In this document: one piece after another, positions 8,529 to 54,678 of the stretch
Layout: every line of letters begins with the position of its first letter
Position numbering within the stretch: position 1 is the stretch's first letter
Source of the DNA: Xinfangfangia pollutisoli
GTDB taxonomy: Bacteria > Pseudomonadota > Alphaproteobacteria > Rhodobacterales > Rhodobacteraceae
Assembly: GCF_020179405.1 (NCBI RefSeq)
Contig: NZ_JAICBZ010000016.1
Coordinates: 1-54,678, forward strand
Direction of reading: 5' to 3'
DNA: 54,678 nucleotides
Translations under genes and position numbers: made by a program
Notes under the pieces: model-generated
Databases searched by the model: none
The model's input: the letters and a program-made list of their open reading frames with translations, nothing else
What the model was told of the DNA's origin: nothing

Positions 8529-8612
8529 CCGCGACGAAACCGGGCCGTCGCCGCGCGGCCCGGATTCCACCGATGACGGGCGGAAAGCCCGCTCTGCAAC
8601 AGGGAAACCACC

Positions 8613-29091: not shown

Positions 29092-29177
29092 GGTTTCTCC
29101 TCCCATCTTCTCGATTTCCGGGCCATGCCCGGCTTGCCGGCGGGGGCAGAGCAATACGCCCTCGCCGGGGTTGTTCA

Positions 29178-30704
29178 TCAGTCTTCGGACTCGGCCAAAG
29201 CCATCCGGGCCTTCTGGCGCCGCTGCGCTCTGACGCCGGCCCAGATGCTCCACACCAGCAAAAGCGCGGTGATGACAAGCACGACACCGGTGATCGGACG
29301 TTCGATCATGCTCCAGAAGTCGCCCCGCGCCAGAACCATCGCCCGGCGGAAGTGCTGTTCGATCAGCGGACCCAGAACGAAGCCCAGAAGCAGCGGGGCC
29401 GCAGGCATGCCAAAGATCCGCATCGCATAGCCAAGGATGCCGAACCCCATCACCACCATGACGTCAAAGGCGCTGTAATGGACCGAATAGGCACCGATGC
29501 AGACGAACATCAGGATCGCCGGATACAGCAGGTGATACGGCACGGACAGCAGCCTGACCCAAAGTCCGATCAGCGGCAGGTTCAGGATGACCAGCAGAAG
29601 ATTGCCGACCCAGAAGCTCATGATCAGGCCCCAGAACAGGTCGGGGTGGTCCGAGACGAGCTTGGGCCCGGGATGGATGCCATGCACCATCAGCGCCCCG
29701 ATCATCAGCGCCATGGTCGCGCTGCCCGGAATGCCCAGCGACAGGGTGGGGATGAAGGCCGTCTGATCGGCGGCGTTGTTGGCCGATTCCGGCGCAACGA
29801 CCCCTTCGATCGCGCCCTTGCCAAAACGCTCTGGTTCGGCCGCGACGCGCTTCTCCAGCCCGTAAGAGACAAAGGCCGCCACGGTCGGCCCGGTTCCGGG
29901 CAGCGTGCCGAAGATCGAGCCGATGGTCGAGCCGCGCAGCATCGGCATCCAGGACCGGCGGAAATCGTCGCGCGTCGGCATCAGGCTGCGCATGTTGATG
30001 GCTTTGGGATCCAGCCGCCGCGACTCGGTTCGCCGGATCGAGCTGATGATCTCGGACACGCCGAACAGACCCATCGCCAGGGCCGAAATGCTGAGTCCGT
30101 CAAGCACACTCAGCGATCCGAAGGTGAACCGTGCCGTGCCGCTTTGCGGATCCATCCCAACGGTTGCCAGCAGGACACCAAGGCAGACCATGGCCAACCC
30201 TTTGACGACCGACGCATCCGAGATGGCCGAGGCTGCGACCAGACCCAACAGCATCAGGGCGAAATACTCGGCAGATCCGAAGGACAGCGCCCAGGCGGAG
30301 ACGACCGGGGTAAAGATGCTCAGCACCAGAATGCCGAAGATGCCACCGTAAAATGACCCAACAGCCGTCATCGCCAGCGCCGCGCCCGCCCGGCCCTGCT
30401 GGGCCATCGGATAGCCGTCAAGGCAGGTCACCGCGCTGGAAGTGGTGCCCGGAATGTTCAGCAGGATCGACGCGGTCGACCCGCCATAAGCCGTGCCGTA
30501 ATAGATGCCGGCCAGCATGATCAGGGCCGTGGTCGGCTCCAGATGGAAGGTCAGCGGGAACAGCATCGAAATGGCGGCCAGCGCACCCAGACCCGGCAGA
30601 ACACCGATCAGGGTTCCGACGAACACGCCAAAGAAGCAGTACATCAGGTTGACCGGCGTCAGCGCGGTCTCAAGCCCTAGGGCGATATTTGCAAGGATAT
30701 CCAT
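29178..30704 (-). CDS. tctA: Tripartite tricarboxylate transporter large permease (TctA)
   Basis: 508 aa, about twelve membrane helices, matching TctA length. Family segments: FVGTLIGVLPGLGALAAISM, IYYGTAYGGSTASILLNIPG and GAIEGVVAPESANNAADQTA, the last being the strongly conserved TctA signature. Its start overlaps the tctB stop by one base (TGATG). It is the main translocation unit, driven by an ion gradient. Confidence 0.95.
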   Translation of the reverse strand: MDILANIALGLETALTPVNLMYCFFGVFVGTLIGVLPGLGALAAISMLFPLTFHLEPTTALIMLAGIYYGTAYGGSTASILLNIPGTTSSAVTCLDGYPMAQQGRAGAALAMTAVGSFYGGIFGILVLSIFTPVVSAWALSFGSAEYFALMLLGLVAASAISDASVVKGLAMVCLGVLLATVGMDPQSGTARFTFGSLSVLDGLSISALAMGLFGVSEIISSIRRTESRRLDPKAINMRSLMPTRDDFRRSWMPMLRGSTIGSIFGTLPGTGPTVAAFVSYGLEKRVAAEPERFGKGAIEGVVAPESANNAADQTAFIPTLSLGIPGSATMALMIGALMVHGIHPGPKLVSDHPDLFWGLIMSFWVGNLLLVILNLPLIGLWVRLLSVPYHLLYPAILMFVCIGAYSVHYSAFDVMVVMGFGILGYAMRIFGMPAAPLLLGFVLGPLIEQHFRRAMVLARGDFWSMIERPITGVVLVITALLLVWSIWAGVRAQRRQKARMALAESED

Positions 30705-37307: not shown

Positions 37308-38480
37308 TCAGCGGCGGATATAGGCCATGCCGTCCATCAACAGACGCCCGGTCCGCCCGATCAGCGCCTTTTGCACCTGCACGCCACCGGGGCCTGCGGA
37401 AACCTGGGCCGAAACGCTCAGCACGCCGCCTGGATGGCCCACACGCAGGTCAAAGATGCCCCGAGCCTGCCCAATATCGCCCGCCGCCTCATGCACCAGC
37501 GTGCCGGGAATACCCGCCGCGACCGAGGTGCCCGCCGCGCCCGAACCGGGATAGGCCTTGGAAAACTCGAACCGCGCAAGCGACCTCGAAAAGAGGTCAT
37601 GGCTGTCGGCCGTCACCTGCCCGCCATTTGTCGCGCCATAGTCGCGCGGAGGGGCGACGGCAAAGATCAGCGGGTTGGTGCTGACGCGCAGTTCCTCATC
37701 GGCATTCGACCCGGTGATGAAACCGACATGCGCGGAAACCGCTTTCCGCACGGCCTCCAGCCGGGCGACCAGCGCGGTATCGGCCTGCATGTCAAAGATC
37801 GAGGCGGCGGTATCCATGCCGATATCGGCCGCCCGCACAAAGATCAGGAAATTGGCCATGTCGACCACGCTGACATCCAGCGCGCCAATGCCCGGCACCT
37901 CGATCCGGTCAAGGGCATTGCCGGTCGGCAGAACCGACGCGCCAAGCGCCGATCCCGCGAAATCGCCGAAATCGACGTCGATCCGCGCTCCGGTGCCCGG
38001 CACGCCACCGATGCTGAAATCGCCATCCACCGCAGGGAACCCGTCCACCATCGGCACGATGGTGCGCAACACCCGGCCGGTATTGGCCTGATGGACATTC
38101 ACCAGCATCCGGTCGCCCTCAACCCGCCCGGCCCCGGTCAGCGCGCCGTAAAGTGCCGCCCCCGCCGACAGGTTGCCGCAATTCGCGCGCCAGTCGACCC
38201 GCGGCAGCTCGGTATTCACCTGCCCGAACAGATAGTCGATGTCGCAGTCGGGCCGCGTGGGCGGCCCCATGATCGCGACCTTGCTGGTCAGCTTGTCGGC
38301 CCCGCCCAACCCATCAATCTGCCGCCGGTCGGGCGAGCCGAAGACCTTCAGGACCAGTGCATCCCGTTCCGCCCCTGCGGCCGGCAGATCGTCGCGCCAG
38401 AGATATATCCCCTTGGACGAACCGCCCCTTATGATCCGCGTTGGAACGGCGGCCATATTGAAATGTTTCGCGTTGGTCAT
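37308..38480 (-). CDS. PrpF-family isomerase (4-oxalomesaconate tautomerase / methylaconitate isomerase-like)
   Basis: 390 aa from the ATG at 38480. The extended upstream frame overlaps the divergent LysR gene and has no similarity. PrpF-family segments: AVPTRIIRGGSSKGIYL with the conserved SSKG, GLGGADKLTSKVAIMGP, and RANCGNLSAGAALYGAL with the conserved Cys. Family members isomerise double bonds in polycarboxylates (2-methylaconitate, 4-oxalomesaconate) by proton transfer. No methylcitrate or gallate genes are present nearby, so the substrate is open. A divergent LysR gene 220 bp away probably regulates it. Confidence 0.9.
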   Translation of the reverse strand: MTNAKHFNMAAVPTRIIRGGSSKGIYLWRDDLPAAGAERDALVLKVFGSPDRRQIDGLGGADKLTSKVAIMGPPTRPDCDIDYLFGQVNTELPRVDWRANCGNLSAGAALYGALTGAGRVEGDRMLVNVHQANTGRVLRTIVPMVDGFPAVDGDFSIGGVPGTGARIDVDFGDFAGSALGASVLPTGNALDRIEVPGIGALDVSVVDMANFLIFVRAADIGMDTAASIFDMQADTALVARLEAVRKAVSAHVGFITGSNADEELRVSTNPLIFAVAPPRDYGATNGGQVTADSHDLFSRSLARFEFSKAYPGSGAAGTSVAAGIPGTLVHEAAGDIGQARGIFDLRVGHPGGVLSVSAQVSAGPGGVQVQKALIGRTGRLLMDGMAYIRR

Positions 38481-42707: not shown

Positions 42708-43415
42708 TCAAGGGCGGATCCGCGCTTGGCGCCAGACCTGATACCGCGCGCGGGTTTCGGCATCCGGCGGATAGGTCGTCTCCAAGGGCGCGCCCGCCGC
42801 GATCTCCGCGGTCATGAAGATCTCCAGCTGCTCGACCTCCCAGGCCTCCCCGGCCACCTCGGCGGCGATCTCGCGCGGGATGCAGACGGCGCCCGTCTCA
42901 TCCGCGACGATCAGATCGCCCGGGAAGACCGCCACCCCGGCGCAGCCGATGGGCAGGTTCCAGTCGGCCACCTGGATCTTCGCGCCACCGGGAATGCCCG
43001 CCGGGCCCTTGCCCCAGATCGGGAAGCCGATCTCGCCGATGGCCGGAAGGTCGTTCACGCCGGTATCGGTGATGAAGCCCAGTACACCTTTGTCGCGCAG
43101 GGCCAGCGCGATGATGTCCCCCAGCGGAGAGACATCGGCGCAGCCATTACCGTCATAGACGATGATCTGCCCCGCCCCGGTCGCCGCCATGGCCAGCCGG
43201 TGCAGGTTGGGTGCCCCGCCCTTGCCCACGGCGGCGCGCAGATCCTCGCGCACGGGGATCGCGCGGATGGTGAAAGCCTCGCCCACGATGCGGGTCTTGT
43301 CGGAGGTCAGCGGCTTCAGGCCCGAGAAGAACCGGGTGTTCAGGCCGCGCTTGAACAGGGTGGAGGTCAGGGTCGCGACCTGGCATTCACGCAGTTTCGC
43401 CTGGATTTCGAGCAT
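42708..43415 (-). CDS. RraA/HMG-aldolase family protein with altered active-site motif
   Basis: 235 aa from the ATG at 43415. The RraA/4-hydroxy-4-methyl-2-oxoglutarate aldolase fold shows VYDGNGCADVSPLGDIIALA and GVLGFITDTGVNDLPAI. The usual catalytic G(A/V)VxDGxxRD segment reads TDTGVND: the metal-binding Asp is kept but the preceding Arg, which stabilises pyruvate enolate in aldolases, is Asn. The C-terminal extension (to residue 235) is longer than in E. coli RraA. Within this catabolic cluster it is more likely a lyase or decarboxylase on a 2-oxo acid than an RNase E inhibitor. Divergent from the monooxygenase gene, with a GTATAC site between them. Confidence 0.88.
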   Translation of the reverse strand: MLEIQAKLRECQVATLTSTLFKRGLNTRFFSGLKPLTSDKTRIVGEAFTIRAIPVREDLRAAVGKGGAPNLHRLAMAATGAGQIIVYDGNGCADVSPLGDIIALALRDKGVLGFITDTGVNDLPAIGEIGFPIWGKGPAGIPGGAKIQVADWNLPIGCAGVAVFPGDLIVADETGAVCIPREIAAEVAGEAWEVEQLEIFMTAEIAAGAPLETTYPPDAETRARYQVWRQARIRP

Positions 43416-43450
43416 CTCTCACCCTTCTCTGGCGCGATTGACACCTTGTT

Positions 43451-43488
43451 GTATTATATAATTGTATCGTTCGTATACGCAAAATACA
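43451..43488 (-). promoter_or_regulatory. Predicted promoter of the RraA-type gene overlapping a GTATAC site
   Basis: Reading leftward, TTGCGT (43482-43477) and TATAAT (around 43458-43453) with about 18 bp between them fit a sigma-70-like promoter about 40 bp upstream of the start codon. The palindrome CGTATACG (43472-43479) overlaps the -35 hexamer, so a regulator bound there would block it. Predicted by eye only. Confidence 0.4.
43464..43479. promoter_or_regulatory. GTATAC-type candidate operator 1 (rraA-like / monooxygenase divergent promoter)
   Basis: Contains GTATC at 43464 and the perfect 8-bp palindrome CGTATACG at 43472-43479. Two similar sites occur at 49744-49760 and 50904-50920, each upstream of genes of this cluster. 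FCD-subgroup GntR proteins bind short palindromes of this style, and one is encoded at 53242. Confidence 0.55.
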
Positions 43489-43543
43489 ACAGATTGTCGG
43501 CTACGAACCACGCGGCCGGAAGCATCGGACAAGCGGGGTCGGC

Positions 43544-44872
43544 ATGGTTGAACATATGGCGTTGGGGGCGTTCCTGCAGGGCTTCGGGCACCATCAGGCA
43601 GGCTGGCGCGACCCTTCGACCGATCCGGGGTCCGAGCTGACACTGGAGCATTACCAAAGGATCGCGCAGACCGCCGAGCGGGGGCAGTTCGACCTGGTCT
43701 TCCTGGCCGATGTGGCCGGATGGCGCGACTGGAACCGAGACACGATCCAGCATCTGTCGCGCACCGCGATCTTCGAGCCGATCACCCTGCTGTCCGCTTT
43801 GGCCGTCAGCACCCGCAACATCGGGCTTATCGCCACCGCCTCGACCAGCTATTACGAACCCTTCACCGTCGCGCGGATGTTCAACTCGATCGACCGACTC
43901 TCCGGCGGGCGGGCGGGCTGGAACCTTGTCACGTCGACGACCGAGGCCGAGGCGCAGAACTTCAGCCGCGAGCACCAGATCCCCCATGCGGAACGCTATG
44001 CCCGGGCCAGCGAATTCGCCGATGTGGTGCGCGGGCTGTGGGATTGCTGGGCCGCAGATGCGGTGTTGGTCGACAAGGAGAGCGGCAATTACCTGAACCC
44101 CGGTCGGGTGCGGGAATTGAACCACAAGGGGCCGTATTTCCAGGTGCGCGGCCCGATGAACATGGCCCGCGCGGTGCAGGGCACGCCGCTGATCGTGCAG
44201 GCGGGTTCGTCCGGGGCCGGGATGGATCTGGCCGCGCGCACGGCGGATCTGGTCTTCACCGCCCAACCCACGCTGGAATCGGGCCAGGCCTTCTACGCCG
44301 ATCTGAAGGGACGCCTGCCCGCCCATGGCCGCGCGCCGGACAGCTTGCGGATCCTGCCGGGGCTGGTGGCGATCATCGGCTCGACCGAGGCGGAGGCGCA
44401 GGCGAAGGCGGCGTCGTTGGAGCAACTGGTGCATCACCGTGTCGGCATCGGCCAGCTGCGCGACCTTCTGGGCGTCGATCTGACCGACCATGATCCCGAC
44501 GGCCCCCTGCCCGAGATCCCCGAGACAGAGGGCGGCAAGTCGCGCCGCCAGATCCTGATCGACATGGCGAAGCGCGACAATCTGTCGATCCGGCAGCTCT
44601 ACCAGAAGACCGCCGCCGCGCGCGGCTTCCTGGCCGTCACCGGCACGCCGGAGCAGGTGGCCGATGCGATGGAACTGTGGTTCCGCAACGGTGCTGCCGA
44701 CGGGTTCAATCTGATGCCCCCGGTGATGAGCCGTGATCTGGACGATTTCGTCGACCATGTCGTCCCCGTCCTGCAGAAACGCGGGTTGATGCGCACCGAA
44801 TATACCGGCGCCACCCTGCGCGAGAATCTGGGGCTGGCCAAACCCGCCTCGGTCTACGATCCCGCTGGCTGA
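43544..44872 (+). CDS. NtaA/SnaA/DszA-type FMN-dependent monooxygenase
   Basis: 442 aa of the bacterial luciferase-like superfamily, normal length for the NtaA/DszA group. Signatures: AGWRDPSTDPGSELTLEHYQ, TASTSYYEPFTVARMFNSID, GGRAGWNLVTSTTEAEAQNF (the family's flavin-pocket segment) and GTPLIVQAGSSGAGMDLAAR. Such enzymes use FMNH2 from a separate reductase and O2 to oxidise C-N or C-S bonds (nitrilotriacetate, dibenzothiophene sulfone, pristinamycin). No flavin reductase is nearby. Context with a hydantoinase and an aminotransferase favours an N-containing substrate. Internal Met at 43556 is an alternative start. Confidence 0.92.
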   Translation: MVEHMALGAFLQGFGHHQAGWRDPSTDPGSELTLEHYQRIAQTAERGQFDLVFLADVAGWRDWNRDTIQHLSRTAIFEPITLLSALAVSTRNIGLIATASTSYYEPFTVARMFNSIDRLSGGRAGWNLVTSTTEAEAQNFSREHQIPHAERYARASEFADVVRGLWDCWAADAVLVDKESGNYLNPGRVRELNHKGPYFQVRGPMNMARAVQGTPLIVQAGSSGAGMDLAARTADLVFTAQPTLESGQAFYADLKGRLPAHGRAPDSLRILPGLVAIIGSTEAEAQAKAASLEQLVHHRVGIGQLRDLLGVDLTDHDPDGPLPEIPETEGGKSRRQILIDMAKRDNLSIRQLYQKTAAARGFLAVTGTPEQVADAMELWFRNGAADGFNLMPPVMSRDLDDFVDHVVPVLQKRGLMRTEYTGATLRENLGLAKPASVYDPAG

Positions 44873-44905
44873 AGACCGCCAGCGCCCTATTGAAGGACAA
44901 ACGTG

Positions 44906-45322
44906 ATGACCCCTCCCCGTCCCCCCATCGAACAGGCCGTGACCTGGCTGTATACCGATGACCTTGAGAAACTGGCGCCGTTCTACAGCGATGTGCTGGG
45001 GCTGGAGATGGTGCTGGATCAGGGGAAATGCCGCGTGTTCCGCACCGCGCCGGGGGCCTATCTGGGGGTCTGCTGCATGGCGAACCGCCCCTTGGGCACC
45101 AAGGGGATGATGGTCACCTTCCTCTGCGAGGATGTGCAGGCGATGTATGAAGCGCTGGTGGCACGCGGCGTGGATACCTTTGAACACCCGCCGCAGAAGC
45201 TGGGCGATGGCTCGCTGATCGGCACCTATTTCCGCGATCCGCAGGGATACCATCTGCAGATCCAACAATTTCTGGATGCGCGCTGGCGCCATCCGGTGCG
45301 CCCGGTCGCTGACGCGGGCTGA
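44906..45322 (+). CDS. VOC family protein (glyoxalase/dioxygenase fold)
   Basis: 138 aa from the ATG at 44906; an adjacent GTG at 44903 would add one residue. Two beta-alpha-beta-beta-beta units: VTWLYTDDLEKLAPFYSDVL and VTFLCEDVQAMYEALVARGV, then IGTYFRDPQGYHLQIQQFLD, with a terminal Glu-like metal position replaced by Gln. VOC proteins include glyoxalase I, extradiol dioxygenases and resistance proteins; which applies is not clear. It follows the monooxygenase by 33 bp and may act on its product or protect against a reactive by-product. Confidence 0.85.
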   Translation: MTPPRPPIEQAVTWLYTDDLEKLAPFYSDVLGLEMVLDQGKCRVFRTAPGAYLGVCCMANRPLGTKGMMVTFLCEDVQAMYEALVARGVDTFEHPPQKLGDGSLIGTYFRDPQGYHLQIQQFLDARWRHPVRPVADAG

Positions 45323-45325
45323 GCC

Positions 45326-45357
45326 TCCGCCCCCGGCATCCCGGGGGCGGATCTCTT
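45326..45357. terminator. Bidirectional terminator between the VOC and aminotransferase genes
   Basis: Perfect eleven-pair stem TCCGCCCCCGG (45326-45336) with CCGGGGGCGGA (45341-45351), loop CATC, followed rightward by TCTCTTT. It sits in the 40-bp gap between convergent genes. Confidence 0.85.
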
Positions 45358-45362
45358 TCAGA

Positions 45363-46448
45363 TCACGCGGCGGCGGATTGCGCATATTCCGTCAGCGCGG
45401 CGACCAGGGCCGCGTTCTGTTCCGCCGTGCCGACGGTGATGCGCAGGAAGCCCGCCAGGTCGTAATCCTCGATGGGCCGCAGGATGATGCCGCGTTCCAG
45501 CAGGAAGGCATGCGCCGCACGCGAGTCCGCGAAGGCCGTGCAAAGGAAGTTGCCGTGACCGGGCAGCGAGGCGAACCCCAGCGCCTCGAGCTGCCGCGAC
45601 AGGGCTGCGCGCAGCACCGCCGTCTCGGCCACGGCATTCCGCATGAATGCCATATCCTGCAGGGCCGCCACCGCCGCCGCCTGGGCCAGCGCGCCGACAT
45701 TGCCGATCTGGCGCATGCGGTTCAGGATCGCGATCATCGACTGGGGGCCATGCGCCCAGGCCACCCGCAGACCGGCCAGCCCGAAGGCCTTCGAGAAGGT
45801 GCGGGTCACGATGACATTCTCGGTCCCCTCCACCAGCTCATGCCCCGCCGTATAGGCCGGATCGGCGACGTATTCCGCATAGGCCGAATCCAGCAGCAGC
45901 ACGATATCGGGCCGCAGCGCATCGCGCAGGCGGCGGATCTCGCTCGTGGGCAGGACGGTGCCGGTGGGGTTGTTGGGGTTGGCCACCACGACGATCTTCG
46001 TGCGCGGGGTGATCGCCGCCAGGATCGCGTCGATGTCGGTGTGATGGTCGGTTTCATCGGTCAGCACCGCCTTGGCACCGACCCGATCCGCGAAGATGCG
46101 GAACTGGATGAAGGAATGGCGGCTGAAAACCACCTCATCTCCGGGGCGGGCATAGCAGCGGTAGATCGTCTCGATGATCGCCTCGGACCCGTTGCCGCAG
46201 ATCAGACTGTCGGGCGAGAAGCCGAAGGTTTCCGACAGCGCCTTGCGCAGCACGGCCGAGCTGGGCTCGGGGTACAGCTCGGGCCGCTGGCTGGCCTTCG
46301 CGAGGGCATCATGCACCAGAGGGCTGGCGCCGAAGGCGGATTCATTGGCCGAAAGCTGGATCCAGCTGGACGGATCCCCAGCGGGTTGGGCCTTGCGGGT
46401 CACGCTCAACGCGGTGGCGTTGATATAGGGCTGAGGGAACAGGGTCAT
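45363..46448 (-). CDS. Histidinol-phosphate aminotransferase-like class I/II aminotransferase
   Basis: 361 aa from the ATG at 46448; the frame is open farther upstream but overlaps tctA. PLP features: IQLSANESAFGASPLV at the substrate-entry region, VVVANPNNPTGTVLPTSEIR, LLDSAYAEYV, and the Schiff-base Lys in TRTFSKAFGLAGLRVAWAHG. HisC-like by sequence, but it lies directly behind a Tct transporter operon (26 bp after tctA) and within a catabolic cluster, so a role in transamination of a degradation product is more likely than histidine synthesis. Assigning hisC would be premature. Confidence 0.88.
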   Translation of the reverse strand: MTLFPQPYINATALSVTRKAQPAGDPSSWIQLSANESAFGASPLVHDALAKASQRPELYPEPSSAVLRKALSETFGFSPDSLICGNGSEAIIETIYRCYARPGDEVVFSRHSFIQFRIFADRVGAKAVLTDETDHHTDIDAILAAITPRTKIVVVANPNNPTGTVLPTSEIRRLRDALRPDIVLLLDSAYAEYVADPAYTAGHELVEGTENVIVTRTFSKAFGLAGLRVAWAHGPQSMIAILNRMRQIGNVGALAQAAAVAALQDMAFMRNAVAETAVLRAALSRQLEALGFASLPGHGNFLCTAFADSRAAHAFLLERGIILRPIEDYDLAGFLRITVGTAEQNAALVAALTEYAQSAAA

Positions 46449-46474
46449 GGGCGGGACTTTCGGCAGGTCAGGGA

Positions 46475-47980
46475 TCAGGGGTCCGGCGCGAAGATCGCAT
46501 TGCGGCGGCGCGCGACCGAGGGAAGGCTGGCGGCGATCACGATGGCGACGGCCAAGGCCAGCAGGGCGGCAGAGATCGGGCGCTCCAGGAAGATGAGGAA
46601 ATCGCCGCGCGACTGGATCAGCGACCGGCGCAGGTATTCCTCCAGCATCGGGCCCAGGATGAAGCCCAGGATGAAGGGGGCAAGCTCCGCCCCCAGTTTC
46701 GAGGCCAGATAGCCAAGCGCCCCGAAGACCACCATGACGTAAAGGTCCGTCGTGCTGTTCTGGGTGGCATAGACGCCGAAGACCGCGAAGACCAGGATGG
46801 CGGGAAAAAGGTACTTGTAGGAAATGGTCAGCAACCGCACCCACAGGCCCACCAGCGGCAGGTTCAAGACCACCAGCATCAGGTTGCCCACCCACATCGA
46901 GGCGACAAGGCCCCAGAACAACTGCGGTTGCGCCTCCATCACGCGCGGGCCGGGCACGATGCCCTGCAGGATCAGTGCTGCAATGAACAGCGCCATCATC
47001 GGGTTGGACGGGATGCCCAGGGTCAGCATCGGCAGGAAGGACATCTGCGCCCCGGCATTGTTCGCGGCCTCGGGTGCCGCCACGCCCTCGACCGCGCCCT
47101 TGCCGAATTCGGCCCGGTGGCGCGAGATGCGCTTTTCGGTGACATAGGCCGCGAAAGAGGCCAGCGCCGCGCCGCCGCCGGGCAAGAGGCCCAGCACGGT
47201 GCCGATCCCGGTGCCCCGGATCGCCGGCATGACGGACCGCCGCGCTTCCTCGCGCGTCGGCATCAGGCTTCCGGTCAGGCGCAGCGTGGTGCTGCTGCCC
47301 GATCCGCCCTCCAGATTGCGCAGGATCTCGGCCAGGCCGAAGACGCCCGAGGCGATGGCGATGATGCTGATCCCGTCATAGAGGCTGAACTGCCCGAAGG
47401 TCAGCCGCGAGGTGCCGCTGTAGATGTCCGTCCCGATCAAGCCACACAGGATGCCCGCGATGCTCATCCCCACCGATTTCAGCAGCGACCCGCTGGCAAG
47501 GGCGACACAGGCCAGCATCCCCAGCACCATCAGCGCGAAATAATCCGGTGCGGCAAAGTTAAGCGCCACCCGGCTGAGCGGTTGGGCGAAGACGGCCAGG
47601 ACCAGGGTCGAGACGGTCCCGGCGAACAGCGAGGCGACGGCGGCAACCGCCAGCGCGGCCCCGGCCCGGCCCTTGCGCGCCATGCGGTAGCCGTCGATGG
47701 CGGTCACGATGGACGAGGTCTCGCCCGGCAGGTTGATCATGATCGCGGTGGTCGAGCCGCCATATTGCGCCCCGTAATAGATGCCCGCCAGCATGATGAT
47801 CGAGGTGGAGGGATCCAGCGCGTAGGTCAGCGGCAGCAGGATCGCGATGGTCGCGGCGGGGCCAACGCCCGGCAGAACGCCGACCAGCGTGCCCAGCAGC
47901 GCGCCGAGGAAGCAGAACAGGATGTTCTCGGGCAGCAGGGCGACGCCCAACCCCATGCCAAGGTTGTTCAGCAGATCCAT
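46475..47980 (-). CDS. tctA: Tripartite tricarboxylate transporter large permease (TctA), second system
   Basis: 501 aa from the ATG at 47980. Segments LLGTLVGVLPGVGPAATIAI, IYYGAQYGGSTTAIMINLPG and GAVEGVAAPEAANNAGAQMS are the TctA hallmarks. It follows tctB by 2 bp. Same family as the protein at 29178 but diverged in many positions, so the two systems should take up different acids. Confidence 0.95.
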   Translation of the reverse strand: MDLLNNLGMGLGVALLPENILFCFLGALLGTLVGVLPGVGPAATIAILLPLTYALDPSTSIIMLAGIYYGAQYGGSTTAIMINLPGETSSIVTAIDGYRMARKGRAGAALAVAAVASLFAGTVSTLVLAVFAQPLSRVALNFAAPDYFALMVLGMLACVALASGSLLKSVGMSIAGILCGLIGTDIYSGTSRLTFGQFSLYDGISIIAIASGVFGLAEILRNLEGGSGSSTTLRLTGSLMPTREEARRSVMPAIRGTGIGTVLGLLPGGGAALASFAAYVTEKRISRHRAEFGKGAVEGVAAPEAANNAGAQMSFLPMLTLGIPSNPMMALFIAALILQGIVPGPRVMEAQPQLFWGLVASMWVGNLMLVVLNLPLVGLWVRLLTISYKYLFPAILVFAVFGVYATQNSTTDLYVMVVFGALGYLASKLGAELAPFILGFILGPMLEEYLRRSLIQSRGDFLIFLERPISAALLALAVAIVIAASLPSVARRRNAIFAPDP

Positions 47981-47982
47981 GC

Positions 47983-48444
47983 TCACCCCCCCCAGAATTG
48001 CAGCGCGGGCCCGATGACGCGGATCGGCACGCCAAGCGCCCAGACCAGAAGCGTCACGCAAAGGGCCGACATGATGAGACCGATCAGCACCGCCTGCGGC
48101 AGGCGCGTCGTGCGGTCCGCCATCGCGGCGCAGGCGGCCAGGACGAACATCGACAGGGCCAGGCCGAAGGGCCCGATCATCAGCGCGAACAGCAGTGGAG
48201 GGACGAGGATGAAGATCAGCGCGCGCAGCGGCAGCTTGGGAAGCACCTCACGCGCGGTCCAGATCCCCTTGCCCGCGACGATCAGCCCGATGACGATCAG
48301 CAGGATGGAAAGCACGCCCGGCATATAGCCCGGACCCATGCTGCGAACGGAACCGATCTCCAGCCCCGAGGCCTGCTGCAGGAACAGCCCGCCCACCGTT
48401 ATGAAGAAAAGGCCGCAGCCGACCTCCTTGTTGATGACTGACAT
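47983..48444 (-). CDS. tctB: Tripartite tricarboxylate transporter small permease (TctB), second system
   Basis: 153 aa with four hydrophobic helices (CGLFFITVGGLFLQQASGL, VLSILLIVIGLIVAGKGIW, LIFILVPPLLFALMIGPFGL, VLIGLIMSALCVTLLVWAL) and the TctB-like loop RSMGPGYMPGVL. It lies between tctC (72 bp) and tctA (2 bp) in a leftward tctC-tctB-tctA order, different from the order in the first system. Confidence 0.9.
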   Translation of the reverse strand: MSVINKEVGCGLFFITVGGLFLQQASGLEIGSVRSMGPGYMPGVLSILLIVIGLIVAGKGIWTAREVLPKLPLRALIFILVPPLLFALMIGPFGLALSMFVLAACAAMADRTTRLPQAVLIGLIMSALCVTLLVWALGVPIRVIGPALQFWGG

Positions 48445-48516
48445 GGGCGGGTTCCTGTCGGTTCGAAACGGAAAGGATGCGCCGAAGGCGCGGCGCGTCC
48501 CATGGAACTTGCGGTC

Positions 48517-49509
48517 TTACTTCAGCGGGGTGGTGCCACCGGCCACGATCATCGCGCGCCAGATCTCGCCCTGGGTGGTGATGAACGCGGGATAATCGGC
48601 CGGGGACAGATCGAAGGGCACCGCACCGATGCGGCCCAGCTGCTCGGCCCCTTCGGGGCTGGCGACATAGGCAGCGATGGCGGTGTTCAGCTTGTCCAGA
48701 ACCGCAGGATCCGTGTCCTTGGCGGCGACCAGGCTGTAGAACGAGGTCAGGTCCAGCTGCGGATAGCCGGCCTCCGCCATGGTGGGCACGTCAGGCAGCG
48801 AGTCCCAGCGGGTGGCATTGGTCACGGCCAGGGCTTTCAGATCGCCGTTCGAGATGGCGCTGAACGAGGTCGCCAGGTTGTCGATGGCGAAATCGGTGTT
48901 GCCAGCGATGATGTCGGTCATCATCTCGGCGCCGGATTTGAACGGCACATGGACCGCGTCGATTTCGGCCAGCTGGGTGAAATAGGCGCCCGCCAGGTGG
49001 ATCGAGCCGCCCACCCCGGCCGAACCGTAGTTCAGCTCACCGGGCTTTTCCTTGGCCAGCGCCACCAGCTCGGCCACCGAATTCACCGGCAGATCCTTGT
49101 TCACCACCAGAACATTGCTGCTTTTGCCAAACATTCCCGCCAGGGCGCTGTCGCGGTCGGGGTCGAAGGTCGTGTCGGCCAGAAGCATCGCGTTGTAGAT
49201 CTGGGTCGCGGTATTGCCCAGCAGCAGCGTGTAGCCATCGGCGGGCTGGGTCATCATGTATTCCGCCGCGCGGGCACCCGAGGCGCCCGGGCGGTTTTCG
49301 ACGACAAAGGCCTGGCCCAGCGTCTTGGTCAGGTCGTCGGCGATCAGCCGGGCGGCCAGGTCATTGCCGCCGCCGGGGCCCGCGCCGACCAGGATGGTCA
49401 CCGGGCGGGTTGGGTAATCGGTTTCAGCCAGCAGCGGGCTGGCCGTCATCGCTATTAGCGAGGCGGTGACGCCCCACACGGCCTTGCGGATGTAACCAGT
49501 GAGTTTCAT
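48517..49509 (-). CDS. tctC: Tripartite tricarboxylate transporter substrate-binding protein (TctC/Bug), second system
   Basis: 330 aa from the ATG at 49509: AGGAG lies 9 bp upstream of this codon, whereas the in-frame ATG at 49518 directly touches it and would be poorly used. Signal peptide with core AVWGVTASLIAMTASPLLA; mature start near ETDYPTRPVTILVGAGPGGG. Bug-family ligand loops VENRPGASGARAAEYMMTQ and VHVPFKSGAEMMTDIIAG. First gene of the transporter-aminotransferase operon; divergent from dapA-like gene, with a GTATAC site in the gap. Confidence 0.93.
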   Translation of the reverse strand: MKLTGYIRKAVWGVTASLIAMTASPLLAETDYPTRPVTILVGAGPGGGNDLAARLIADDLTKTLGQAFVVENRPGASGARAAEYMMTQPADGYTLLLGNTATQIYNAMLLADTTFDPDRDSALAGMFGKSSNVLVVNKDLPVNSVAELVALAKEKPGELNYGSAGVGGSIHLAGAYFTQLAEIDAVHVPFKSGAEMMTDIIAGNTDFAIDNLATSFSAISNGDLKALAVTNATRWDSLPDVPTMAEAGYPQLDLTSFYSLVAAKDTDPAVLDKLNTAIAAYVASPEGAEQLGRIGAVPFDLSPADYPAFITTQGEIWRAMIVAGGTTPLK

Positions 49510-49880
49510 GGCGCGCATCTCCTGTCGGTCCGGAACTCTTCCTGAGGATCTGATAGCGGGTCACGTGTCCAAATGGGATACGTGGGTTATTCTTATATTA
49601 TTCCACCCAGGCGCAAACTGTTCTCCGGTGGGTCCCTGAGCAAGAATTTTTCCCTCTGCCCAATCCCTGTGCAGGAGTTCGATGGCCCCGGGGGCCGATT
49701 CGTCGCTAAGGCGGGCTTCGATCCCTGCAGGCGATGCTCCATGGTATCCACATCGTATACAAACACCGCACGACGATATCCCCATCCGTTCCCGCATCTG
49801 CCATCCTGTCGACCACATCCCGCGCCTTTCGCGGACCTGGCGGGACAGGCCCGCGCAAACCATGCATTGTGAGAGCTTCG
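49510..49880. promoter_or_regulatory. 371-bp divergent control region between tctC and the DapA-type gene
   Basis: No gene is supported here; open frames on both strands lack similarity. It has an AT-rich patch at 49590-49610 that could hold the leftward tctC promoter, and the candidate operator at 49744-49760. The DapA-type gene begins at 49881 after a weak GAGAG ribosome site. Confidence 0.6.
49744..49760. promoter_or_regulatory. GTATAC-type candidate operator 2 (tctC / dapA-like divergent region)
   Basis: GTATC at 49744 and GTATAC at 49755-49760, spaced 11 bp start to start, the same spacing as at operator 3. Located in the divergent gap of the transporter and aldolase operons. Confidence 0.55.
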
Positions 49881-50807
49881 ATGACATTCAGTGCCGAAAC
49901 CTCCGGCGTCTACCCGATCGCCGCGACGCCCTTCCTGCTCGATGGCAGCATCGACACCGTCTCGCTGGACCGGCTGACCGATTTCTATCAGGACGCAGGC
50001 GCCACCGGGATGACCATCCTGGGCATCATGGGCGAGGCGAACAAGCTGACCGGGCCGGAAAGCCTGTCCATCGCGCGGCAGGTGATCGCGCGCTCGCGCG
50101 TGCCGGTGGTGGTGGGCGTTTCCAGCCCTAACCTGACCGGCATGGGCCTGCTGGCCCGGCAGGCGATGGAGGCGGGCGCCGCGGGCGTGATGATCGCCCC
50201 CACGCCCAACCTGCGCACCGATGAGCAGATCCTGACCTATTTCCACCAGTGCATCGAGGCGGTGGGCAACGATATCCCCTGGGCCCTGCAGGACTATCCT
50301 TTGACCCTGCAGGTGCAGATGTCGGTGCCGCTGATCGCGAAGATCGTCGAAGAGCTGCCCTCCTGCGTGATGCTGAAGGCCGAAGACTGGCCGGGGCTGG
50401 AGAAACTGTCGAGGCTGCGCGCCCTGCAGGACGGGGGCCAGATGCGCCGCGTGTCCATGCTGACGGCGAATGGCGGGCTGTTCCTGGATTTCGAGGGCGA
50501 GCGCGGATCGGACGGGATCATGACCGGCTACGGCTTCCCCGACATGCTGGTCGAGCTGTTCAATCTGCAACAGGCCGGGCAGCGCGATGCGGCGCATGAC
50601 CTGTTCGACGCCCACCTGCCGCTGATCCGCTATGAACAGCAGCCGGGCGTCGGTCTGGCGGTGCGCAAATACGTTCTCGCCGGGCGCGGGGCCATCGCCC
50701 ATGATGTGCAGCGCAAGCCGGGCAGCACGCTGTCGGCCCGTGCGCGGGAAGAGGTGGACTATATGCTGGCCCGCATCGCCCGCACCGACAAACGCGCGGC
50801 GCTCTGA
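49881..50807 (+). CDS. Dihydrodipicolinate synthase (DapA) family aldolase
   Basis: 308 aa from the ATG at 49881 (MTFSAETSGVYPIAATPFLL). TIM-barrel class I aldolase: GITxxGEx-like segment ILGIMGEANKLTGPES, catalytic Tyr in ALQDYPLTLQ and Schiff-base Lys in CVMLKAEDWPGL. The catalytic pair is thus intact. The family includes lysine-pathway DapA but also many catabolic lyases and dehydratases that release or use pyruvate. Position among catabolic genes, divergent from a carboxylate transporter, suggests the latter. Followed by its own terminator. Confidence 0.92.
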   Translation: MTFSAETSGVYPIAATPFLLDGSIDTVSLDRLTDFYQDAGATGMTILGIMGEANKLTGPESLSIARQVIARSRVPVVVGVSSPNLTGMGLLARQAMEAGAAGVMIAPTPNLRTDEQILTYFHQCIEAVGNDIPWALQDYPLTLQVQMSVPLIAKIVEELPSCVMLKAEDWPGLEKLSRLRALQDGGQMRRVSMLTANGGLFLDFEGERGSDGIMTGYGFPDMLVELFNLQQAGQRDAAHDLFDAHLPLIRYEQQPGVGLAVRKYVLAGRGAIAHDVQRKPGSTLSARAREEVDYMLARIARTDKRAAL

Positions 50808-50814
50808 GACCGAC

Positions 50815-50841
50815 AAGGGCGTCTTGCGGGGCGCCTTTTTT
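50815..50841 (+). terminator. Terminator after the DapA-type gene
   Basis: Seven-pair stem AAGGGCG (50815-50821) with CGCCTTT (50832-50838, one G-T pair) followed by further T residues to 50841. It separates the DapA-type gene from the hydantoinase-SDR unit, which therefore needs its own promoter. Confidence 0.7.
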
Positions 50842-50903
50842 CCATGCGGTGACACGGCTCGCGTACGCACAGACAGGCCCCGCGGCGAAGATTTCGTGCG
50901 TTG

Positions 50904-50920
50904 CTATACGATTTGTATAC
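50904..50920. promoter_or_regulatory. GTATAC-type candidate operator 3 (hydantoinase promoter)
   Basis: CTATAC at 50904 and GTATAC at 50915-50920 are 11 bp apart; TATAC-GATTT-GTATA forms a perfect inverted repeat with a five-base spacer. Located between the terminator at 50841 and the hydantoinase start at 50990, in a visibly AT-rich patch, as expected for promoter plus operator. Confidence 0.6.
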
Positions 50921-50989
50921 GGAACGTATTGCCACGAGCACACCATCGGGTGAGAACCGGCTTTGGACAGGGACAGGTTTGAGGCAGGC

Positions 50990-52414
50990 ATGGCAGAGCG
51001 CGCCCCCTATGATCTTGTGTTGCGCGGCGGGCAGGTCGTCACCGCCTCGGGCGTGGTCACCGCCGATGTCGCGGTGCGGGACGGCAAGATCGCGGCCCTG
51101 GGCGCGGACCTGCCCGCAGGGCGTGTCGAACGTTCGGCCAAAGGGCGCTATGTCCTGCCGGGCGGGGTCGATTCCCATTGCCATGTCGAGCAGATGACCG
51201 CCGCCGGCATCATGAACGCCGATACCTGGGAAAGCGCCACCCGCGCGGCGGCCTTCGGTGGCACCACTACGATCATCCCCTTCGCCGCCCAGCATCGCGG
51301 CATGGATCTGGCCGAAGTGGTACAGGACTACCACCTGCGCGCCGACCGGGGCGCGCTGGTCGACTATGCCTTCCACATGATCATCACCGACCCCTCGCCC
51401 AAGACGGTGCAGAAGGATCTGCCCGCGCTGATCCGCAGCGGCCATGGCTCGATCAAGGTCTTCATGACCTATGACCCGCTGATCGTCGACGATGCCGGGA
51501 TCCTGAAGCTCTTGCAGGTGGCCAAGGCCGAGGGCGCGCAGGTCTGCGTCCATGCCGAGAGCCACGACATGATCCACTGGGCCACCGCCCGCCTTCTGGC
51601 CGAGGGCAAGACCGCCCCCCGCCATCAGGCCGAGTCGCATCCCCGCCTGGCCGAATACGAAGCCATCGGCCGCCTGATCGCTCTGGCCGAGCTGGTGCGC
51701 CATCCGGTGATGATCTTCCACGTCTCCACCGCCGAACCGCTATCCTTGATCCGCGATGCGCGCGCCCGGGGCGCGACCCTCTGGGCCGAGACCTGCCCGC
51801 ATTACCTGTTCCTCACCGATGCGGTGATGGACAAGCCGGGGACCGAGGGCGCGAAATGGATGTGTTCGCCCCCGCTGCGGACCGAGGCGGATCAGGCCGC
51901 CCTCTGGCAGGCGCTGCGGGCGGGCGATCTGGATTTGGTCTCCTCGGACCATGCGCCCTTCCGCTATGACGCCTCGGGCAAGCTGGCGGCCGGGCCGGGG
52001 GCCACGTTCAAGCAGATGGCCAATGGCATGCCCGGCTTGGGCGCCCGCATGCCGCTGCTGTTTGACGCGGCGATGCGCGGGCGGCTGACCCTGCCGCAGG
52101 TGGCCGAACTGGGGGCAGAGGCTCCTGCGCGGATCTACAATCTGCAGGACAAGGGGCGCATCGCGCCGGGAGCGGATGCCGATCTGGTGCTGTGGAACCC
52201 CGAAGCCCGCACGGTCCTGTCGGATGACACGGTGCAGGATGGCACGGGCTATACGCCCTACCCCGGGCGGGACCTGATCGGCGCGGTGGAGGCGGTCTAC
52301 CTGCGCGGTCAGCCGGTGGTGAATGAGGACCGGCTGCAGGTGCAGCCCGGTCATGGCCGCTTCCTGCCGCGCGGCGGGGGCGACGCGGCGATCTGGCAAG
52401 AGAAAGCAGTCTGA
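50990..52414 (+). CDS. Dihydropyrimidinase / D-hydantoinase family amidohydrolase
   Basis: 474 aa from the ATG at 50990 (MAERAPYDLVLRGGQVVTAS), normal length. Metal site: His-x-His in VDSHCHVEQM, the carboxylated Lys in SIKVFMTYD, His in QVCVHAESHDM and in VMIFHVSTAE, and Asp in LVSSDHAPF. All ligands for the binuclear centre are present. It hydrolyses a cyclic amide bond as in dihydrouracil, hydantoin, allantoin or cyclic imides. No beta-ureidopropionase or carbamoylase follows, which argues against ordinary pyrimidine catabolism. It is in one unit with the downstream SDR. Confidence 0.93.
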   Translation: MAERAPYDLVLRGGQVVTASGVVTADVAVRDGKIAALGADLPAGRVERSAKGRYVLPGGVDSHCHVEQMTAAGIMNADTWESATRAAAFGGTTTIIPFAAQHRGMDLAEVVQDYHLRADRGALVDYAFHMIITDPSPKTVQKDLPALIRSGHGSIKVFMTYDPLIVDDAGILKLLQVAKAEGAQVCVHAESHDMIHWATARLLAEGKTAPRHQAESHPRLAEYEAIGRLIALAELVRHPVMIFHVSTAEPLSLIRDARARGATLWAETCPHYLFLTDAVMDKPGTEGAKWMCSPPLRTEADQAALWQALRAGDLDLVSSDHAPFRYDASGKLAAGPGATFKQMANGMPGLGARMPLLFDAAMRGRLTLPQVAELGAEAPARIYNLQDKGRIAPGADADLVLWNPEARTVLSDDTVQDGTGYTPYPGRDLIGAVEAVYLRGQPVVNEDRLQVQPGHGRFLPRGGGDAAIWQEKAV

Positions 52415-52442
52415 ACGGTGGCCCAAACGGTTGAGGATGACA

Positions 52443-53222
52443 ATGGAACTTGGAATTTCCGGGCAGACGGCCCTGGTGCTGGGCGGCGGCAAGGGCATCG
52501 GGCGCGGCATCAGCGCGGCGCTGGCGGCGGAAGGCGTGCGGGTCATCCTGACCTCGCGCACCCTGGCCGAGGCCAAGGCGGCGGCGGCCGGGATCGGGCT
52601 GGATTGCGTGGGCCTGGCCTGTGACACCGCCGATCTGGCCAGCGTGAACGCCCTGGCCGACACGGTCGAGGCGGAGTTCGGTGGCGCGGGGATCCTGGTG
52701 CTGAACAGCGGCGGCCCCGCGGCGGGCCCGGCGACGGGGGTGGAGATGGCGGCCTATGCCACCGCCTTCCAGCAGCTGTTCATGGGCCCGGTCACCCTGG
52801 CCATGCGCCTGCTGCCGAAGATGCGCGCGCAGGGCTATGGCCGGATCATGACCGTCGGTTCCTCGGGCATGGTCGAGCCCATCGCCAATCTGGCGGTCTC
52901 GAACGCCATCCGCCCGGCGACGGCGGGGTGGAGCAAGACGCTGGCGCGCGAGGTGGGCGCCGATGGCGTCACCGTCAACGTGCTGATCCCCGGCCGCATC
53001 GACACCGACCGCGTGGCGCAGATCGACGGCGGCGCGGCGGCGCGGACAGGGCAAAGCCTGGACGCCGTACGGGCGCAATCCTGGGGGCGGATCCCGGTCG
53101 GCCGCTACGGCACGCCCGAGGAGTTCGGCGCGGCGGCGGCCTTCCTGGCCGGGCGTTCGGCAGGGTTCATCACCGGATCGTTCCTGCGCATTGATGGCGG
53201 CCAGATCACCTCGATCGGCTGA
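52443..53222 (+). CDS. SDR-fold protein lacking the catalytic Tyr/Lys pair
   Basis: 259 aa from the ATG at 52443, 6 bp after GAGG; the in-frame ATG at 52437 overlaps that ribosome site. The cofactor loop LVLGGGKGIGRGISAALAAE is intact and Ser lies in TVGSSGM, but where SDRs have YxxxK this protein has LAVSNAIRPATAGW, so neither Tyr nor Lys is in place. A subgroup with this SNxxR pattern is widespread and often annotated as 3-oxoacyl reductase without proof. Follows the hydantoinase by 28 bp; convergent with the GntR gene. Confidence 0.88.
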   Translation: MELGISGQTALVLGGGKGIGRGISAALAAEGVRVILTSRTLAEAKAAAAGIGLDCVGLACDTADLASVNALADTVEAEFGGAGILVLNSGGPAAGPATGVEMAAYATAFQQLFMGPVTLAMRLLPKMRAQGYGRIMTVGSSGMVEPIANLAVSNAIRPATAGWSKTLAREVGADGVTVNVLIPGRIDTDRVAQIDGGAAARTGQSLDAVRAQSWGRIPVGRYGTPEEFGAAAAFLAGRSAGFITGSFLRIDGGQITSIG

Positions 53223-53228
53223 AGCGGA

Positions 53229-53262
53229 AGCCTGTGGCGGCTCAGCCGAACCGCCACAGGCT
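53229..53262. terminator. Perfect 12-bp inverted repeat across convergent gene ends
   Basis: AGCCTGTGGCGG (53229-53240) pairs exactly with CCGCCACAGGCT (53251-53262), loop of ten. The right arm lies in the last codons of the GntR gene and the loop contains its stop. It can stop or stabilise transcripts from either side; no T-run is present. Confidence 0.65.
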
Positions 53263-53949
53263 GCGCAGCGCGTCGTCACGAATGTTGTCCAGATGGCGGC
53301 GCATCGCGGCGACGGCGGCCTCGCGGTCGCGGGCCAGAAGCGCGTCGATGATCGCCAGATGCTCGTCCCGCCCGACCTCCAGCCGGGCCTGCTGGCGGTC
53401 GCTGCCGAACAAGAGGGTGCGCTGGCGCAGCGACAGCACATAGTTGTGCAACAGCTTGCTGTGCGAGGCGCGCAGGATCGCGCCATGCAGGCGGGTGTCG
53501 ATCATCCAATAGGCCTCTTGCCCGGCATCCAGCGGCAGCGCCTCGAATTCGTCGCGCAAGCCCTGCAGGAAGTCTTCGGTGAAATCGGGCTCGCCCACGG
53601 AATCGATGGCGATGGCGATGGCTTCCGATTCCAGGCAGCGCCGCATGTGGACGATTTCCAGGTAATCGGTCAGCGTCAGCTCCTGCACCATCAGGGTGCG
53701 GCCGTTGCGGACCAGGAATCCCTCGCCCTCCAGCTTGCCGATCGCCTCGCGCATGGGGGTGCGCGACAGGCCCAGATCGGCCGCCAGCTTGCCCTCCTGC
53801 ACCACGTCATTGCCGCGCAGCGTTCCGGTCAGGATCTGGCGCAGGACCGCATCATAGGCGACACGGGACAGCGAGACCCCCGCCTTATCGGCCGGAACAA
53901 GCGGCTCCGTGACCTCGTCCATCCTGCTCGTCATACGCGGCCTCGGCAT
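53242..53949 (-). CDS. GntR family transcriptional regulator (FCD subgroup)
   Basis: 235 aa; the ATG at 53949 follows GGGAGG. Winged helix: AYDAVLRQILTGTLRGNDVV and KLAADLGLSRTPMREAIGKL, then the all-helical FCD ligand domain with its metal-site His residues (YWMIDTRLHGAILRAS, DEHLAIIDALLARDREAAVA, RRHLDNI). FCD regulators of organic acid and pyrimidine use bind short palindromes and release them with the pathway substrate. It is the only regulator in Block 4 and the natural binder of the GTATAC sites. The AT-rich region upstream (ATATGTATAAG near 54037) may hold its own promoter and an autoregulatory site. Confidence 0.92.
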   Translation of the reverse strand: MPRPRMTSRMDEVTEPLVPADKAGVSLSRVAYDAVLRQILTGTLRGNDVVQEGKLAADLGLSRTPMREAIGKLEGEGFLVRNGRTLMVQELTLTDYLEIVHMRRCLESEAIAIAIDSVGEPDFTEDFLQGLRDEFEALPLDAGQEAYWMIDTRLHGAILRASHSKLLHNYVLSLRQRTLLFGSDRQQARLEVGRDEHLAIIDALLARDREAAVAAMRRHLDNIRDDALRSLWRFG

Positions 53950-54169
53950 CTGCGGCCTCCCTTGATCCTGCCGCCCTTATACAAAGGCCGGATGGAAAGC
54001 ACCAAGCTCAGACGTTCGAATGGCGCGTTGCTGGCTATGATATGTATAAGATTGTTGCAATAATAGTGTCCCGCTACGAGCGTTGGCGATACATCATGTA
54101 AATCTCGGTTGACGGAAAGGGCGGCACGATCATAACTATCCGCCGCGCTGCTTAATCTCCCAAGACCCT
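53950..54169. promoter_or_regulatory. Upstream region of the GntR gene up to the IS3 remnant
   Basis: About 220 bp with no gene. AT-rich around 54030-54070 (TATGTATAAG, TTGCAATAATAG), unlike the GC-rich surroundings, consistent with the leftward gntR promoter. A weak relative of the GTATAC motif (TTATACAA near 53977) lies about 30 bp from the start codon. No terminal inverted repeat of the IS is visible here. Confidence 0.4.
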
Positions 54170-54678
54170 GCCCCGGCGCGGGTGTCGGAACGCCTGCTGG
54201 CGGATGCGATGTTGGATAACGTGGTTCTGAAGGATCTCTTGGGATCGAAGTCATGGGACGCCATTGGTCCGAGGACCATGGCTGAGGCCTGACGACACCG
54301 ATGGCGCGGCGGGACGCGGTGTTGCGGGCGATGAAAGATCATCCGATCTCTCAACGTCGGGCCTGCGTCCTGATCGGTGTCGATCCGAAGACGGTGCGGC
54401 GTGAACGACCGCCCGATAGCCCGGAGATCCGTGAGGAGATGCACAAGATCGCCGAGAAGCGTCGCCGCTTCGGGTATCGGCGTGTGGGCATCCTGCTGGA
54501 GCGCAAGGGCATGATCATGAACGAGAAGAAGCTCTGCCGCATCTATCGGGAAGAGGGCCTGTCGGTGCGTCGACGCTGTGGCCGCAAACGGGCGCGTGGC
54601 AGTCGCACGCCAATGCCGGTGCCGATGCGGCCGAACCAGCGCTGGTCGCTGGACTTTCTGTCCGATACCTTCGGGGCC
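54170..54678 (+). mobile_element. IS3-family transposase remnant (end of orfA plus start of orfB), cut by the window edge
   Basis: The orfA frame shows only its leucine-zipper end, RLLADAMLDNVVLKDLLG, and stops at 54292; the helix-turn-helix part is missing. In the next frame orfB runs from about 54286 to the window end: ARRDAVLRAMKDHPISQRRA, CVLIGVDPKTVRRERPPDSP, RRFGYRRVGILLERKGM and RWSLDFLSDTF, the latter being the start of the DDE integrase domain with its first catalytic Asp. The frame switch fits the usual -1 slip that makes OrfAB. The 5' end of the element is gone, so it is unlikely to move by itself. Confidence 0.88.

Follow-up and report, generated by a model that had tools for sequence, protein, structure and literature searches.

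The contig NZ_JAICBZ010000016.1 of the alphaproteobacterium Xinfangfangia pollutisoli (Rhodobacteraceae; assembly GCF_020179405.1), 54,678 nucleotides long and analysed whole (hereafter the window), carries at 42708-53949 eleven genes of nine kinds that, in our judgement, form a real and rare catabolic regulon (Table 1). The region is quite probably an accessory catabolic regulon under the neighbouring GntR/FCD protein, most likely a repressor, and in silico evidence from two genomes gives good support to reading the genes as a single GntR/FCD regulon. The identities of the genes, the GTATAC-type boxes in their promoters, the rarity of these boxes and the recurrence of genes and boxes together in a second genome are features of the DNA itself. 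A first-pass annotation had described nine functional kinds side by side, and Pfam and NCBIfam profiles confirmed the families it named; its span began at 43416 and left out the RraA gene itself. It had also called the regulon possibly undescribed, which stands insofar as no description of the gene set was found among the matches listed from searches of open-access papers.

The window contains four copies of GTATAC (43473, 44950, 49755, and 50915), three in intergenic DNA and one, at 44950, inside the VOC gene, and none within positions 1-43415. The claims of the first-pass annotation that GTATAC lies in three promoter regions, and that in two of them a second half-box stands 11 bp away, were borne out, the latter for 49744/49755 and 50904/50915; at the site between rraA and ntaA the flanking GTAT (43464) is 9 bp off GTATAC. 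Overlooked at first pass were weak boxes upstream of gntR itself (53977 and 54044), through which gntR may possibly be autoregulated. In the 987 bp of intergenic DNA of the cluster the three GTATAC compare with a shuffle mean of 0.13, and three were reached in 2 of 20000 shuffles. The genome-wide count proposed by the first-pass annotation gave 62 GTATAC in the 4,408,679 bases (188 contigs) of this genome, and the extended mark with a second box 11 bp upstream, BTATN7GTATAC, matched only twice genome-wide, both times in the cluster (reversed control, 0). Based on this enrichment and on the confinement of the extended mark, GTATAC is present in the cluster beyond chance. The letter B was widened to admit T after the second genome had been seen; both window matches fit the earlier form with G or C.

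A search for the gene set in other genomes, likewise proposed at first pass, led to Ectorhizobium quercum BDR2-2 (locus L024, genome G687), a member of a Rhizobiaceae genus (PMC10434624), where every gene except the SDR, 10 of the 11, is found within about 10 kb, in another order. The identities to the window proteins are 49% for GntR, 51% for DapA, 63% for RraA, 69% for NtaA, 66% for the hydantoinase, 65% for TctC, 45% for TctB, 78% for TctA, 64% for the aminotransferase, and 73% for the VOC protein, and the family names agree by Pfam for the nine tested and by NCBIfam for the aminotransferase. There rraA-dapA-gntR diverges from ntaA-hyd (ntaA and the hydantoinase gene hyd being 6 bp apart), followed by tctCBA-aminotransferase and voc, so that the divergent rraA|ntaA pair and the tctC-B-A-aminotransferase run are common to both loci. 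SDRs of 47% identity are encoded elsewhere in that genome, one of them adjoining a second DapA. The Ectorhizobium locus carries similar boxes in its three control regions: TTATGC-N5-GTATAT-N5-GTATAA in 11-bp phase between rraA and ntaA (8570-8597), TTATTC-N5-GTATAC before tctC, and TTATAC-N5-GTATAC before voc. Its 694 intergenic bp hold 2 GTATAC against 0.05 expected (23 of 20000 shuffles), and a third GTATAC (15982) lies inside the VOC gene. BTATN7GTATAC has four matches at three places in this 5.1-Mb genome, three of the four in the cluster; since T was admitted to B post hoc, these extended-mark counts are descriptive, and the plain GTATAC counts are unaffected.

The window regulator exceeds the Pfam cut-offs for both the GntR (40.2 bits, cut-off 27) and FCD (64.5 bits, cut-off 24.3) domains, as does its Ectorhizobium counterpart. 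Of 56 residues of the helix-turn-helix region, 38 are the same in the two proteins, and the recognition-helix stretch DLGLSRTPMREAIG is identical in both. A palindromic GT...AC operator, in the form GTATAC, is found in all three promoter regions of the window cluster and in two of three control regions at the Ectorhizobium locus. The regulon with GTATAC operators put forward at first pass is thus sustained, at the level of sequence, by the enrichment, by how seldom the extended mark occurs genome-wide and by the recurrence beside a GntR with the same recognition-helix stretch.

This type of regulator and operator is already known. Atu1419 of Agrobacterium fabrum, an FCD GntR repressor of the VanR group, binds ATGTATACAT and represses catabolic genes, contacting DNA through Glu34, Arg45, Thr46, and Arg49 (PMC7797058). 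According to the alignment, the window GntR carries the same Glu/Arg/Thr/Arg residues at equal spacing (EGKLAADLGLSRTPMR), and the two systems have in common an FCD-type GntR, ATGTATACAT operators with a GTATAC core in the promoters of a catabolic cluster, and matching spacing of the contact residues. Atu1419 differs in that it controls hydroxycinnamate degradation and acts as a tetramer on sites 190 bp apart, whereas the window cores have boxes 9-11 bp away. In the FadR, HutC, and YtrA subfamilies, GntR operators have been described as flanked by weaker boxes at a distance of 7-12 nt from the centre of the site (PMC4494728), so that the 11-bp feature is of a type already known; compared with these, the hyd promoter displays three boxes in 11-bp phase, with a similar arrangement at the Ectorhizobium promoters. 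CitO was also considered for comparison and dropped, as GTATAC was found there only in a primer.

Among the enzymes, the RraA-like protein departs most clearly from its family. Arg-123 of the HMG/CHA aldolase of the RraA family (PDB 3NOJ) is essential (PMC5065237). In both the window and the Ectorhizobium proteins the motif reads GVND, with Asn at the position of this Arg and the Asp of the R-D motif, the metal Asp, retained; the Arg is kept in three plasmid-borne paralogues (L134, L136, and L139), as it is in the four displayed out of 9 matching solved chains. The protein also scores below the cut-offs of the LigK/HMG aldolase models (TIGR02798, 72.1 of 304.5 bits; NF006731, 83 of 179 bits). 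The loss of the Arg argues against a plain retro-aldol step. The DapA-like protein possesses a Schiff-base Lys and a K-x-E motif (KAED, against KIET in L-2-keto-3-deoxyarabonate dehydratase), whose roles we take to be those of the corresponding residues in that dehydratase. Its closest solved chain, 3DZ1 (398 bits), is labelled only as a dihydrodipicolinate synthase; the dehydratase (3FKK, 7C0C) is the closest solved DapA relative with a named special activity, and its overall similarity is weak (87 bits). Hence the two retro-aldol or lyase steps initially envisaged are weakened, one protein lacking the catalytic Arg and the other resembling a dehydratase. RraA and DapA genes also adjoin each other, with an SDR gene near, in three of six plasmid DapA regions opened (L134, 9526-12921; L136, 10499-12927; L139, 11188-13770), with a 4-bp overlap between RraA and DapA in two of these regions; identity to the window SDR is 44-45% in L136 and L139 and only 28% in L134.

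In the SDR no Tyr or Lys is found in GMVEPIANLAVSNAIR and the Tyr-x3-Lys pair was not detected, the protein having been read without alignment to a Tyr-bearing SDR. Four aligned relatives likewise have neither residue in this stretch, and the solved proteins 5va8, 5idx, and 5vps have no Tyr there; a Tyr-less SDR is therefore ordinary for its relatives. The VOC protein contains DPQGYHLQIQ, with Gln where the VOC protein of an Alsobacter locus (L103) has Glu; its His presumably occupies a metal-ligand position.

The monooxygenase belongs to the NtaA/DmoA family, with YtnJ/MoxC, nitrilotriacetate-monooxygenase-type proteins, and DszA as its closest solved relatives. The hydantoinase belongs to the D-hydantoinase/dihydropyrimidinase group (TIGR02033, 499.2 bits, cut-off 393.25), falls just below the NF009941 cut-off (630.4 of 647 bits) and displays in the alignment HCH, SIKVFM, VHAES, FHVST, and SSDHAPF, which we take to contain the metal ligands H-x-H, Lys, His, His, and Asp. 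The aminotransferase misses the HisC cut-off (TIGR01141, 265.4 of 276.55 bits), which its Ectorhizobium orthologue passes (290.6).

D-hydantoin utilisation runs from a D-hydantoinase through a carbamoylase to a D-amino acid. It is resembled by a locus in a Pseudolabrys metagenome-assembled genome (L102), which encodes an SDR (53% identity), DapA (57%), hydantoinase (57%), GntR (36%), and an amino-acid-type ABC importer, together with a D-amino-acid transaminase above its cut-off, a carbon-nitrogen hydrolase, a flavin reductase, and a DAO-type oxidase; its hydantoinase and that of Ectorhizobium pass the PRK13404 model, the window protein scoring just below. The window has hydantoinase, DapA, and GntR in common with this locus and differs from D-hydantoin utilisation in having, among its eleven genes, a TctCBA importer and an NtaA-type monooxygenase instead of a carbamoylase and a D-transaminase. 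The Alsobacter locus encodes GntR (39%), hydantoinase (56%), DapA (51%), and peptide-type ABC parts. Hydantoinase, DapA, and GntR recur together in four loci, accompanied by importers of three kinds, which fits a sequence of ring opening, amino acid, 2-oxo acid, and DapA-type step.

Based on the sequence evidence, it can be hypothesized that TctCBA would import a carboxylate, which the NtaA-type FMNH2 monooxygenase and the hydantoinase would oxidise, opening a cyclic amide or imide; a 2-oxo acid would be formed by the aminotransferase, the DapA-type enzyme would dehydrate or cleave it via a lysine Schiff base, and the RraA-like and SDR-like proteins would complete the conversion or serve as non-classical partners, the GntR/FCD protein acting as repressor of the set. 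Repression, the inducer, the order of the steps and the class of substrate are what we infer. Somewhat short of an even chance is given to a bolder version, in which the region encodes an undescribed route for a cyclic-amide or cyclic-imide carboxylate, with flavin monooxygenase and hydantoinase in series, an Arg-less RraA performing a new reaction beside a DapA-type dehydratase, and a single FCD repressor reading an 11-bp phased GTATAC-like array.

The set is rarely encountered. Orthologues of NtaA with at least 60% identity were absent from 294 other genomes of the family (best 55%), from 12 other genomes of the genus (best 51%) and, at E <= 1e-150, from 384 other genomes of the class; among 394 genomes of the family of E. 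quercum only this genome reached 60%, the next five having 54-57%. These samples overlap in part, and at most 4-5 candidates per genome were scored in the class search and in the searches of the two families. VOC homologues at E <= 1e-25 were found in none of 397 other genomes across the phylum and in 6 of 397 genomes of the order of E. quercum, where the rest of the set was present, in the stretches opened, only in E. quercum. In five genomes with distant VOC homologues (38-48%), the stretches opened (one, L178, of only 5.5 kb) yielded nothing further except, in two genomes, GntR and SDR proteins of 27-30%. Eighty hydantoinase loci were kept from genome contigs (170 relatives): RraA, NtaA, aminotransferase, and TctB occurred in that of Ectorhizobium alone and GntR in six. 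Among PLSDB plasmids, a collection that may omit records very near the genome of the window, the full set was not seen: 502 records above the limit matched NtaA, all below 60% (best 57.1% among the matches listed), three matched RraA (best 43.7%), 29 matched the aminotransferase, all below 60% (best 43.1% among 15 listed), and none matched VOC. Sinorhizobium DNA matching tctA was rejected as a further case (TctA 59%, TctB and TctC 29-30%, and none of the remaining genes in the opened stretches). The set thus has the look of a unit that moves horizontally and is seldom retained; G+C content is 0.647-0.691 in the four bins spanning it and 0.626-0.683 elsewhere in the window, and in view of this lack of a clear step its horizontal origin rests on rarity in the genus.

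Several observations weigh against a single GntR/FCD regulon encoding one pathway. Some 249 bp separate the start of tctC from the operator, a long distance for simple occlusion; the three operator/promoter regions gave no match to a sigma-70-type promoter (two matched upstream of gntR), and the boxes upstream of gntR are weak. The Ectorhizobium rraA/ntaA region has GTATAT and GTATAA in place of an exact GTATAC, a relaxed match at 4640 falls outside the gene set there, and the reversed control was nearly as frequent in that genome (three matches, two forward and one reverse, against four), so that only the location of the matches is telling there. DapA accompanies the hydantoinase in 3 of the 80 loci (L024, L102, and L103), the other 77 indicating that the pairing is no rule of this hydantoinase group. 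The eleven genes include neither an N-carbamoylase nor a flavin reductase, so that the proposed chain is incomplete. The full set, finally, was seen in two genomes, a footprint of n = 2.

Three other explanations were weighed. A different FCD regulator of this genome could bind the boxes, in which case the adjacent GntR would control only itself or nothing here; bare GTATAC is indeed found elsewhere, 4 of the 14 other sites examined (out of 58 outside the window) being intergenic by a simple open reading frame rule, and two of these, L009 and L016, have similar flanking boxes by eye. The confinement of the extended mark to the cluster in its own genome and the joint recurrence of boxes and orthologous GntR in Ectorhizobium render this improbable. 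A similarly low probability is assigned to the genes not forming one pathway, the TctCBA-aminotransferase, hydantoinase, and monooxygenase units having come together by chance on a catabolic island: the window has many other catabolic genes and RraA-DapA and like parts occur apart, but 10 of the 11 orthologues stay together in Ectorhizobium, reordered and with similar boxes, preserving the rraA|ntaA and tctCBA-aminotransferase sub-arrangements.

The substrate of the set could also be an amino acid derivative with sulfur or an N-substituent, in which case the NtaA-type enzyme would be splitting a C-S or C-N bond in the manner of CmoJ, YxeK, and NtaA and the hydantoinase acting on a side branch. 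NtaA cleaves a C-N bond, CmoJ, YxeK, and DszA are described as acting on C-S bonds, and the nearest solved relatives of the monooxygenase given above point the same way. However, the acetyltransferase and deacetylase used by the CmoJ route (PMC10863075) are not among the eleven genes, and the 6-bp distance between ntaA and hyd in Ectorhizobium argues for consecutive steps; this explanation is considered unlikely. A catabolic regulon controlled by the neighbouring GntR/FCD protein is the preferred reading.

Table 1. Genes and putative operators of the cluster (window coordinates).
Feature	Position	Strand	Remarks
RraA-like protein of the PRK08245/NF006093 subfamily with Asn at the catalytic Arg position	42708..43415	-	Profiles and alignment
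rraA/ntaA divergent promoter, putative operator	43464..43488	.	GTAT 43464, GTATAC 43473, AATACA 43483; spacing 9-10 bp
NtaA/DmoA-family FMN-dependent monooxygenase	43544..44872	+	TIGR03860 560.7 bits, cut-off 279.7
VOC-family protein	44906..45322	+	Start ATG 44906 or GTG 44903; may be without metal ligands
HisC-like fold-type-I aminotransferase	45363..46448	-	Ends the tct run
TctA, large membrane protein of tripartite tricarboxylate transporter	46475..47980	-	Pfam TctA 500.6 bits
TctB	47983..48444	-	Pfam/NCBIfam profiles
TctC solute receptor	48517..49509	-	Pfam/NCBIfam profiles
tctC/dapA divergent region, putative operator	49744..49760	.	GTATCC-N5-GTATAC; 49744 to 49755, 11 bp
DapA-family lyase; presumed Schiff-base Lys and K-x-E as in L-2-keto-3-deoxyarabonate dehydratase	49881..50807	+	
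Upstream of hydantoinase, putative operator	50904..50931	.	CTATAC 50904, GTATAC 50915, GTATTG 50926; 11-bp steps
D-hydantoinase/dihydropyrimidinase-type amidohydrolase; presumed metal ligand motifs present	50990..52414	+	
SDR-family protein; group without Tyr-x3-Lys pair	52443..53222	+	
GntR/FCD regulator, proposed repressor of the gene set	53242..53949	-	
Upstream of gntR, weaker boxes, possible autoregulation	53977..54049	.	TTATAC 53977, GTATAA 54044; weak

Outside the cluster, window positions 1-43415 form a dense catabolic island with genes that by eye encode an acyl-CoA carboxylase, CoA ligases, and enoyl-CoA hydratases, and with a TRAP importer (DctP, 7434-8528); a second TctC/TctA pair is encoded at 28132-30704 and a PrpF-type protein at 37308-38459. 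At the contig end a partial open reading frame with an HTH_21 domain (54301-54678), by eye a fragment of an IS3-type transposase, suggests that the cluster may border a mobile element. Elsewhere in the genome, the GTATAC sites with flanking boxes by eye also include L010 and L011, which lie inside called open reading frames, L010 near a GntR homologue of 32%; these two, L009, and L016 are possibly operators of other FCD regulators.

The gene set and its candidate regulator provide a handle on the substrate, as the repressor and the three promoters could be used as a reporter in compound screening. In addition, the change of Arg to Asn points to a possible new activity in the RraA family, whose members often bear the names of ribonuclease regulators.

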